From contig CP034120.1 of assembly GCA_003856375.1 (NCBI GenBank), forward strand, positions 2,790,001 to 2,854,000: DNA of 64,000 nt, in the 5' to 3' direction. The stretch is from Glaciecola amylolytica (GTDB taxonomy: Bacteria > Bacteroidota > Bacteroidia > Flavobacteriales_D > Crocinitomicaceae). Shown here one piece after another: positions 46,961-56,506 of the stretch. The translations under genes and the position numbers were made by a program. Positions within the stretch are counted from its first letter, which is position 1. The number at the start of each line of letters is the position of its first letter. Under the pieces are notes generated by a model. The model had not been told where the DNA came from, ran no database searches, and was given only the letters and a program-made list of their open reading frames with translations.

Positions 46961-47043
46961 GCGCATGTGGTGAAATTGGTAGACACGCCATCTTGAGGGG
47001 GTGGTTTCCTATGGATGTGCTGGTTCGAGTCCAGTCATGCGCA
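46961..47043 (+). tRNA. tRNA-Leu (anticodon GAG)
   Basis: The acceptor stem GCGCATG pairs with CATGCGC (47036-47042) and A47043 is the discriminator; CCA is not encoded. The D-arm region GTGAAATTGGTAGACAC is typical of tRNA-Leu. The anticodon stem CCATC/GGTGG encloses loop TTGAGGG with anticodon GAG. A long variable arm and T-arm GCTGG-TTCGAGT-CCAGT follow. It is a class II tRNA, decoding CUC/CUU. A terminator follows at once, and fragments of its 3' end recur downstream. Confidence 0.95.
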
Positions 47044-54301: not shown

Positions 54302-55021
54302 ATGAAAAAAATTCCACTATTTAGCTTGCTGCTATTTGCAAGCTTCCTGTTTACGAGTATCGTAAACGCTCAAGACCTCCGGACGCTCTACCGCGATGCA
54401 ATGCGCACTGCTGTTTATCCTGATTCGTCGAAAATAGACAAGAATCTGGTAGCGATCACGCGCAAGAATCCCGACCTTATCTGGAAGACCTTTAACGGTG
54501 AACCTTATCTGCTTGTTGTAACCTGGAAAAGTGCCTCCTACTACCCGAACGGAGGAGATTCTCTCTACAACACCGGTCCCTATTCGATTTGGGTGACTAC
54601 AGCGCCACAACTGAAAAACTGGTTTCACAAACAGAATGTGGCAGATACCAATCTGCGCCTCAAACAATTACTGGGATTACCACCTGTGGGCACGAATTAC
54701 AAATATTTCGTAGAGTTCTGGGTACGGCCCGCAGATCTTTACCGCCCGTGTCCCGATAATGAAATTGATGATAAATCCTGCTCCACCTGTTTTCCAGCCA
54801 ATGTATCTCAAGACTACGTCACCTGGTTCAATGAAAGCCGGATCAGCCGCTATTATGCGTGTCAGCTCTATGATCAGTATCCATGGACACAGCTCGGGTA
54901 TACCTATGATTGGAATCCGAGTAATCCGACACACGTGGGTATGAGTGAATTCGTGATCAAGCTGAATGCAAAAGTCTATGTAAAACGCGTTTCAACAACA
55001 AGAGAATATCTGACTAAATAA
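54302..55021 (+). CDS. Secreted protein of unknown function
   Basis: The 239 residues have a signal peptide (KKIPLFSLLLFASFLFTSIVNAQ). The mature protein is rich in aromatic residues (YKYFVEFWVRPADLYRP; YYACQLYDQYPWTQLGYTYDW) and has a Cys cluster CPDNEIDDKSCSTC. I recognise no family; there is no sorting domain, so it may stay periplasmic. It is the last gene before the diverged copy of the tRNA-Leu terminator. Confidence 0.75.
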   Translation: MKKIPLFSLLLFASFLFTSIVNAQDLRTLYRDAMRTAVYPDSSKIDKNLVAITRKNPDLIWKTFNGEPYLLVVTWKSASYYPNGGDSLYNTGPYSIWVTTAPQLKNWFHKQNVADTNLRLKQLLGLPPVGTNYKYFVEFWVRPADLYRPCPDNEIDDKSCSTCFPANVSQDYVTWFNESRISRYYACQLYDQYPWTQLGYTYDWNPSNPTHVGMSEFVIKLNAKVYVKRVSTTREYLTK

Positions 55022-55143: not shown

Positions 55144-55151
55144 TATTTTTG
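55144..55151 (+). promoter_or_regulatory. -7 element of the asnA leader transcript
   Basis: TATTTTTG matches TAnnTTTG. The transcript start would be near 55158, 14 bases before the leader peptide ATG. No good -33 TTTG is seen. Confidence 0.6.
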
Positions 55152-55171
55152 TTGCAAACATTGAACAAGTC

Positions 55172-55243
55172 ATGATCCAACAATTAAATAATATCATTCT
55201 TAATAATTGCAGTTTTCACTGCAACAGGATGAATAGTATTTAA
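55172..55243 (+). CDS. Putative asparagine leader peptide of asnA
   Basis: The frame encodes 23 residues plus TAA, beginning MIQQLNNIILNN. Six codons are for Asn (positions 6, 7, 11, 12, 18, 21), over a quarter of the peptide, in two adjacent AAT-AAT pairs. It sits between a consensus promoter and an intrinsic terminator upstream of asparagine synthetase. Codons 13-18 form a hairpin TGCAG/CTGCA (55208-55223). Amino acid-biosynthesis leaders with codon runs for the product are the classic sign of ribosome-controlled attenuation; that it works here is inference. Confidence 0.75.
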   Translation: MIQQLNNIILNNCSFHCNRMNSI

Positions 55244-55267
55244 GATATATCAAACTATTTTTAAGCG

Positions 55268-55298
55268 AAAGCCTTCCTGTTTCAGGAGGGCTTTTTTT
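55268..55298 (+). terminator. Attenuator terminator upstream of asnA
   Basis: AAAGCCTTCCTG pairs with CAGGAGGGCTTT (one G-T) over a TTT loop, followed by seven T. Bases 55275-55281 (TCCTGTT) can instead pair with AACAGGA at 55223-55229 in the leader frame, a possible antiterminator. Confidence 0.85.
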
Positions 55299-55337
55299 AT
55301 TTCCATATGTTATGACAACAACACTTTTACATCGTAC

Positions 55338-55410
55338 GAATAATCCCCAAAGGGGGATTTAAACAAAAGCACAGACTCAATCAGCGAGTCCTTAAAAAGA
55401 CGAATTATTC
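55338..55410 (+). promoter_or_regulatory. Structured asnA leader, possible three-helix element
   Basis: GAATAAT (55338-55344) can pair with ATTATTC (55404-55410). It encloses hairpins ATCCCC/GGGGAT (55343-55358) and GACTC/GAGTC (55374-55390). The outer helix competes for two bases with the first hairpin. It lies between the attenuator terminator and the asnA ATG. Confidence 0.35.
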
Positions 55411-55432
55411 ATTTTTAGTAAAGTAAAAAACA

Positions 55433-56395
55433 ATGTTATCATATACCATTAACTCATTAGAGACAGAACAACAAATACAATTTGTTAAAGACACTTTCAC
55501 CTCCTTATTGAAGGAAAAATTAGGTTTACATCCGGTGTTCGCACCTTTATTTGTTCAAAACACCAGCGGATTAAATGATGATCTGAACGGTACAGAAACC
55601 TCGGTTTCCTTTCAATTGAAAAGTACAGGAGCAGCATACGCCATTGTCCATTCTTTGGCTAAGTGGAAACGCAAACGCTTGCAGGAGCTTTCTATTCCGT
55701 TGCACGAAGGAATCCTTACCAATATGCTTGCTATCCGGGCGGACGAAACGCTGACACCACTGCATTCTGCCCTTGTTGATCAGTGGGATTGGGAAATTCA
55801 TATTGCAAAGGAAGACAGAAACCTCTCTTTCCTGAAGGAAACCGTCAGATTGCTTTACGCACAAATGCACACTGCTGAATCAGTGACCTGCAAAGAGTTT
55901 GATCATACGGAACCGGTATTGCCTCCTGAAATAACCTTCATTCATGCGGAAGATCTTTTAGAACAATACCCGGATTTATCTCCCAAAGAAAGAGAACGGA
56001 AGATCACGCAACAATTTGGAGCAGTATTTCTGATCGGGATTGGAAATGCTTTGAGCAACGGTGAACCGCATGATGGTCGTGCACCCGATTACGATGATTG
56101 GACTACACCGACTTCTGCCGCTCATACCGGATTGAATGGCGATCTTCTTGTTTGGAACCCTGTATTGGAAGATGCTCTGGAATTGTCTTCCATGGGGATT
56201 CGGGTAGATCATTCCGCTTTGGTGAAACAATTGGAGATAAGAGGAGTATCTTCACGTCAACACTTACCGTTTCACCGATCCGTTTTGGAAGAAACGATTC
56301 CGTTTTCTATCGGTGGAGGTATCGGCCAATCAAGATTAGCGATGTTTCTGCTACGGAAAAGTTCCATTGCCGAAGTGCAGCAGTGTGAGTATTGA
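55433..56395 (+). CDS. asnA: Aspartate-ammonia ligase (asparagine synthetase A)
   Basis: The 320 residues match AsnA, a class II tRNA-synthetase-like enzyme that makes asparagine from aspartate, ammonia and ATP. Family blocks are LHPVFAPLFVQNTSGLNDDL, IVHSLAKWKRKRL, NMLAIRADETLTPLHSALVD with QWDWE, and SMGIRVDHSALVKQL with IGGGIGQSRLAMFLL at the active site. It uses ammonia rather than glutamine. It is preceded by the leader peptide and attenuator and ends at its own terminator, so it is monocistronic. Confidence 0.96.
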   Translation: MLSYTINSLETEQQIQFVKDTFTSLLKEKLGLHPVFAPLFVQNTSGLNDDLNGTETSVSFQLKSTGAAYAIVHSLAKWKRKRLQELSIPLHEGILTNMLAIRADETLTPLHSALVDQWDWEIHIAKEDRNLSFLKETVRLLYAQMHTAESVTCKEFDHTEPVLPPEITFIHAEDLLEQYPDLSPKERERKITQQFGAVFLIGIGNALSNGEPHDGRAPDYDDWTTPTSAAHTGLNGDLLVWNPVLEDALELSSMGIRVDHSALVKQLEIRGVSSRQHLPFHRSVLEETIPFSIGGGIGQSRLAMFLLRKSSIAEVQQCEY

Positions 56396-56472: not shown

Positions 56473-56506
56473 AAAAATCCTTCCGGAATTCCGGGAGGAT
56501 TTTTTA
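56473..56506 (+). terminator. Terminator after asnA
   Basis: AAAAATCCTTCCGG pairs with CCGGGAGGATTTTT over AATT (one G-T), followed by TATTTTT. It lies about 30 bases before the next ATG. Confidence 0.9.

Follow-up and report, generated by a model that had tools for sequence, protein, structure and literature searches.

A putative asparagine leader-peptide attenuator upstream of asnA in Bacteroidota

The asnA locus

The window is the whole stretch of 64,000 nucleotides that was analysed. Positions 55144-56395 of it hold, in this order, a -7-like promoter box, a short open reading frame (ORF) of 23 codons rich in asparagine (Asn), an intrinsic terminator, a second short ORF and asnA (Table 1). 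The initial annotation had described the promoter box, a 23-codon frame with six Asn codons in two AAT-AAT pairs plus two singles, a strong terminator and asnA as the gene behind it, and all of these were located as described. We take TAnnTTTG to be the -7 promoter motif of Bacteroidota, which is the basis for naming the box; the same motif is found at most 70 nt upstream of 13 out of 51 leader ORFs, second leaders counted, where 3.2 are expected.

The Asn codons of the leader are two AAT at 55187-55192, two AAT at 55202-55207, AAC at 55223-55225 and AAT at 55232-55234. The terminator is composed of a stem at 55267-55295 and a T-run ending at 55298, with 13 pairs of which 6 are G-C. The complementarity of AACAGGA to TCCTGTT, also part of the initial annotation, is present in the sequence, and TCCTGTT (55275-55281) falls within the terminator's 5' arm and loop. 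The annotated hairpin TGCAG/CTGCA is real as well, but it caps a longer, putative masking helix, 55185-55201/55226-55241. This leader helix, the inner helix 55231-55237/55254-55260 and the second ORF with its AAT-AAT are additions to what had been annotated.

Table 1. Features of the asnA locus in window coordinates
Feature	Position	Strand	Basis or remark
Promoter -7-like box, TATTTTTG	55144-55151	+	matches TAnnTTTG
Leader peptide 1, MIQQLNNIILNNCSFHCNRMNSI	55172-55243	+	23 codons, six Asn
Strand 1, TAAATAATATCATTCTT	55185-55201	+	pairing with 55226-55241 could mask the antiterminator
Second AAT-AAT pair, proposed stall site	55202-55207	+	antiterminator starts 15 nt downstream
Small hairpin TTGCAGT/ACTGCAA, caps the leader hairpin	55207-55224	+	folding
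Antiterminator strand AACAGGA	55223-55229	+	complement of TCCTGTT, 55275-55281
Inner antiterminator helix, GAATAGT (55231-55237)/ACTATTT (55254-55260)	55231-55260	+	minimum-energy fold of the un-terminated leader
Intrinsic terminator, GAAAGCCTTCCTG-TTT-CAGGAGGGCTTTT and T-run	55267-55298	+	terminator scan; covariation in 27 leaders
Second short ORF (ORF 2), candidate second leader, MTTTLLHRTNNPQRGI	55312-55362	+	position as in the second leaders of tandem loci
Hairpin AATCCCC/GGGGGATT at the Asn codons of ORF 2	55342-55359	+	folding
Hairpin GACTC/GAGTC, without T-run	55374-55390	+	folding
asnA, aspartate-ammonia ligase	55433-56395	+	PF03590, E 1.2e-91

All 200 dinucleotide shuffles of the leader RNA at 55150-55310 fold less well than the RNA itself (z -3.24). 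The stretch of the leader ORF alone is slightly better than its shuffles (z -1.73), 11 of 200 being as good. Folding of the un-terminated leader gives two helices, AACAGGA/TCCTGTT and GAATAGT/ACTATTT. On the 3' side of asnA another terminator is located at 56473-56504, with a CCTTCC/GGGAGG stem resembling that of the leader terminator.

Data sets

The asnA loci were pooled from six overlapping whole-genome samples and one named-contig search. An asnA match was present in 5 of 40, 23 of 395, 21 of 395, 22 of 200, 20 of 61 and 20 of 399 genomes of the respective samples, and the named-contig set, being the best 80 of 591 candidate stretches, leans towards near relatives. From a total of 156 loci, 149 were usable. 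Two loci with no frame (L122, L136), two incomplete loci (L134, L135) and three with less than 200 nt upstream (L049, L073, L111) were left out. The loci cannot be counted as independent, given that at least 21 of the 149 belong to one genus, that some records may be the same genome, and that L025 and L050 are identical.

Spacing was evaluated on 51 leader-terminator pairs from 45 loci, including L032, a 57-aa ORF that is probably spurious. Two alignments were used: A2 with 36 of the 51 pairs, chosen by the analyst, and A3 with the 27 leaders having the antiterminator inside the ORF. The other nine sequences of A2 have the antiterminator past the stop codon and were excluded from A3.

Recurrence upstream of asnA

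Of the 149 usable asnA loci, 40 have a short Asn-rich ORF with a terminator behind it on the sense strand, and none has this combination on the antisense strand. Disregarding the terminator, the numbers for an Asn ORF are 52 sense versus 5 antisense. The runner-up residue is Phe, for which ORF and terminator occur at 11 sense and 0 antisense loci of the 149. The script scored 109 loci as lacking the element, of which at least five (L110, L123, L137, L142, L147) carry a leader on closer look.

The initial annotation had proposed a comparison of the regions upstream of asnA in related bacteria, and Asn-rich frames with terminators do recur there. Many loci of the window's family carry both, and the sole other asnA-bearing genome of the same genus in the samples searched (L002) has the leader MISSRNNNSFFNYNSM. 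One genus has the leader at all 20 asnA loci fetched (17 by script together with L137, L142 and L147). Furthermore, it is found in named Hymenobacter, Solirubrum, Mesonia and Vaginella and in a Bacteroidales MAG.

Mapped on a tree built from 148 asnA proteins, leader presence takes 7 changes, compared with a mean of 38 after shuffling; for this tree the labels of L110, L123, L137 and L147 were set by hand, and L142 was scored leaderless though its leader is present. One branch splits the tree into a side of 57 rows, 42 of them with leader, and a side of 91 rows including the Prevotella-like asnA, where 89 were scored as leaderless and L017 and L018 as having a leader. Judged from these sequences, a single origin of the Asn leader followed by losses is likely. 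We state this no more firmly because the six rows nearest to the window (L005 and L129-L133, all of the same family) were scored without leader and because long branches lead to the window and L002. The gene itself is patchy in the window's genus, with asnA in only G000 and G009 of 14 genomes, its own included, and an asnB-type model matched in 25 of 25 relatives, 24 of them above the cut-off.

Upstream of the asnB genes of relatives, Asn ORF and terminator were found together in 0 of 27 loci (30 were fetched, three had no readable MCGI start, and L158 among the 27 has just 56 nt upstream), and the same search at their asnS genes gave 0 of 25. Asn ORFs standing alone, with the terminator absent, are seen in these two sets at L168, L175 and L203.

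A DNA pattern search covered 61 genomes of one genus, asnA being present in 20 of them. It returned three matches, each located upstream of asnA, and was insensitive because the pattern was too tight. A covariance model (R1) run over 295 genomes matched 221 of them at E <= 0.05, and therefore mostly detects generic terminators. Its top three matches are asnA leaders with the window as the third, each of them a member of the training set. A terminator is seen in 25 of the 30 loci returned by R1: three asnA leaders, L232, and 21 loci without a clear leader by eye save L223. The remaining five (L221, L234, L235, L239, L243) are incomplete; among them, L235 corresponds to the asnA element of L017.

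Two of these loci are described in their own right. L232 has, at 1428-1625, a short ORF with a run of Met and Cys (CMMMMCCM) and the motif AAGAGGC, complementary to an arm of the next terminator; its downstream gene is a PAPS reductase (PF01507), i.e. the same platform with codons for sulfur amino acids. At L223 a Lys-rich short ORF and a terminator are positioned about 100 nt before position 1500, on the reverse strand of the locus. The start of the gene downstream of this ORF resembles that of, presumably, an aspartate semialdehyde dehydrogenase, and the element is possibly a lysine leader.

Position and covariation of the antiterminator

In 46 of the 51 pairs the best complement of the terminator 5' arm and loop starts 9-16 nt past the last paired Asn codon. 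Start positions in shuffled controls are nearly flat, with about one fifth at 9-16 nt as estimated from printed bins. This distance is close to that from the A-site of a ribosome to its front edge, and thus a ribosome stalled on Asn would leave the strand free, while an advancing ribosome would cover it. The placement therefore agrees with the stalling on Asn codons that the initial annotation had assumed.

At p<0.05 the complement is better than shuffles for 32 of the 51 pairs. The window belongs to the 19 that miss: its spacing is 15 nt and its complement, taken alone, is borderline with p about 0.04-0.05. For L002 of the same genus the p-value is 0.93. When the ribosome-covered part was removed and the RNA was ended before the 3' arm, the minimum-energy fold contained the antiterminator in 49 of 51, a result that is partly circular because the segment was cut at the end of the target.

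The terminator covaries strongly and the antiterminator moderately, in an alignment with many rows from a single genus. Over the 27 leaders of A3, pairing in the terminator columns reaches 93.3%, 6 of 11 pairs show changes in both partners, and 0 of 500 shuffles reach any of the five measures. In the antiterminator columns pairing stands at 90.1% and two-sided changes affect 4 of 9 pairs; covariation is 0.197 vs 0.138, and 1 of 500 shuffles scores as high. The grading as moderate was chosen because 19 of 500 shuffles reach the number of two-sided pairs and 104 of 500 the number of pair types. Compensating changes in both helices, as the initial annotation had called for, are hence found, with two of the five measures for the antiterminator being weak against shuffles. 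Sliding the antiterminator partner lowers the pairing to 62% or less, and in L038 the antiterminator pairs, by eye, one base out of the alignment register.

A leader strand able to pair with the antiterminator beats shuffles (p<0.05) in 13 of 51 leaders. The masking helix has a mean z of -1.43 over 50 rows related by descent (L032 dropped; Wilcoxon 1e-9). In the window this helix, with its cap, does not outperform shuffles (z 0.1). In L001, L119, L120 and L124 the masking strand includes Phe codons situated between Asn runs, and pairing of this strand may explain the excess of Phe in the leaders. With the Phe codons lying in the antiterminator-pairing strand, a leader enriched in Phe is not necessarily a sensor of Phe.

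Proposed mechanism

The window element is very probably a ribosome-mediated (leader-peptide) transcription attenuator sensing charged tRNA-Asn. The features that identify such an attenuator are an Asn-rich ORF, a terminator before the gene, Asn codons at which a stalled ribosome would leave the antiterminator free and a downstream gene making the sensed amino acid, and the locus has each of them. An antiterminator that is exclusive with the terminator and covaries is found for the set of leaders, the window alone being borderline. A gene for AsnRS is found in the genome of the window, which makes charging of tRNA-Asn with free asparagine possible.

The transcript would begin a few bases past 55151, and a ribosome would translate the leader, in line with the excess of synonymous in-frame codon differences among sister leaders given below. 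If no ribosome is present, the leader hairpin would mask AACAGGA-GAATAGT, the terminator would form and transcription would end there. With ample Asn-tRNA, the ribosome would reach the stop codon at 55241 and cover AACAGGA-GAATAGT, again allowing the terminator to form. When Asn-tRNA is scarce, the ribosome would be expected to stall on the second AAT-AAT pair and block strand 1, whereupon AACAGGA and GAATAGT could pair with TCCTGTT and ACTATTT. This pairing would preclude the terminator, and asnA would be transcribed.

Tandem leaders and ORF 2

A succession of leader, terminator, leader and terminator is seen at 7 of the 149 asnA loci (L018, L023, L038, L053, L118, L125, L128), L128 having the weakest of the second leaders. 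L121, with a first leader starting with GTG, is an eighth candidate by eye. Both leaders of the tandem loci carry Asn codons, and no part of the system is more unusual than this serial arrangement.

ORF 2 of the window starts 13 nt past the first T-run, and its AATAAT runs into a stable CCCC-AAA-GGGG hairpin. Folding of 55330-55412 gives a z of -3.22, with 1 of 200 shuffles as good. We infer that ORF 2 is a second sensor, either decayed or acting on translation. An additional control of asnA by ORF 2 through translation or Rho, which would add to the attenuator described above and not exclude it, is conceivable though doubtful. Its location, which is that of the second leader in tandem loci, and its overlap with a strong hairpin speak for it; against it, neither the terminator scan nor the sequence gave a hairpin with T-run after ORF 2, and no similar second element was seen among the loci read. 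As a tentative generalisation, asnA of Bacteroidota might be controlled by two serial Asn attenuators using the same codons, giving a steeper, two-gate response than one leader would, and the second gate of the window would be one whose terminator was lost and which acts via translation or Rho.

In L024, L039, L040, L139, L153 and their sisters, inspection by eye shows a recurring block, AAAAAACTCCC-loop-GGGAG, that lies downstream of the first terminator and ahead of asnA. In several loci it is followed by TTATTGCC, and it has no Rfam family at cut-off.

Alternative explanations

An ordinary terminator ending the upstream transcript, next to an AT-rich ORF present by chance, is improbable. 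The region is indeed AT-rich and ORFs with Asn pairs arise by chance, as the 5 antisense cases show, but the upstream gene stops at 55021 and is followed by a hairpin and T-run of its own before 55080, so the terminator at 55267-55298 is unneeded for that gene. The recurrence, spacing and covariation among relatives likewise argue against chance.

Slightly less probable still is a short ORF encoding a functional small protein with regulation being secondary. Such a protein would account for substitutions that are biased in frame. Pairwise codon differences between 13 sister leaders are synonymous in 183 of 490 cases in frame, and the two shifted frames give 88 of 493 and 56 of 482; the variable columns of the same leaders, 6, 9 and 9 at codon positions 1, 2 and 3, show a weak bias. 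However, leader sequences beyond the Asn run differ widely between groups, and in many leaders an RxWKA-like stretch at the C-terminus falls on the antiterminator.

A T-box riboswitch reading uncharged tRNA-Asn directly is the least probable of all, for although the target gene, the signal and a terminator with an alternative helix would be the same, the Asn codons stand in frame within a short ORF, and no T-box match was obtained from Rfam in the window (gathering cut-offs) or in L003 (E up to 5).

Relation to known systems

The leader-peptide attenuator that we favour resembles the classical ones of the trp, his, phe, thr, leu and ilv operons of Proteobacteria. They have in common an ORF with codons for the product, a masking helix, an antiterminator, a terminator and a biosynthetic gene; the asnA leader differs in its Asn codons, in its gene and in its Bacteroidota host. 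To our knowledge, few attenuators have been described in this phylum. An Asn T-box is known before asnA and asnS in Firmicutes. It shares with the asnA leader the gene and the attenuation in response to asparagine, but there the tRNA is sensed through RNA contact, without a leader ORF. In the mgtCBR leader of Salmonella two ORFs respond to different signals, whereas Asn codons are found in both leaders of the asnA tandem loci.

A scan of the window with Rfam at cut-off gave no family besides a tRNA at 46961-47043. Over the leader, Phe_leader scored 26.9 bits in L003 (cut-off 55) and PyrR 29.3 bits (cut-off 54), both far too low for membership.

The available parts of the following papers bear on the comparison. 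The mgtCBR case is one of tandem attenuators with two short ORFs in one leader that are expected to attenuate transcription (PMC3641672). Clues to leader-peptide attenuation have been presented for amino acid operons of Flavobacterium psychrophilum, with pheA and hisG elements named (PMC9723704); phylum and general proposed mechanism are the same as for the asnA leader, and the main text, as far as available, does not contain 'asn'. The same paper describes Bacteroidota as being without Shine-Dalgarno sites. Leader-like short ORFs were noted in Bacteroides (PMC7366714). According to PMC2965389, leader-peptide systems had, to its authors' knowledge, been shown only in Proteobacteria and Actinobacteria in addition to their own case from Firmicutes. 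The word stem 'asparagin' does not occur in the available parts of PMC1262725 and PMC4833913. Literature searches covering titles and the starts of abstracts gave no asparagine leader peptide. Within the literature searched, the mechanism is classical, and asparagine and asnA appear to be new for leader-peptide attenuation.

If the proposed mechanism is true, asparagine joins the amino acids that are sensed through leader peptides. Tight coupling of ribosome and polymerase is not a given in Bacteroidota, and leaders that are recurrent and serial constitute a natural test of it. Similarly, the tandem leaders offer a natural test of how two gates sharpen the response to one signal.
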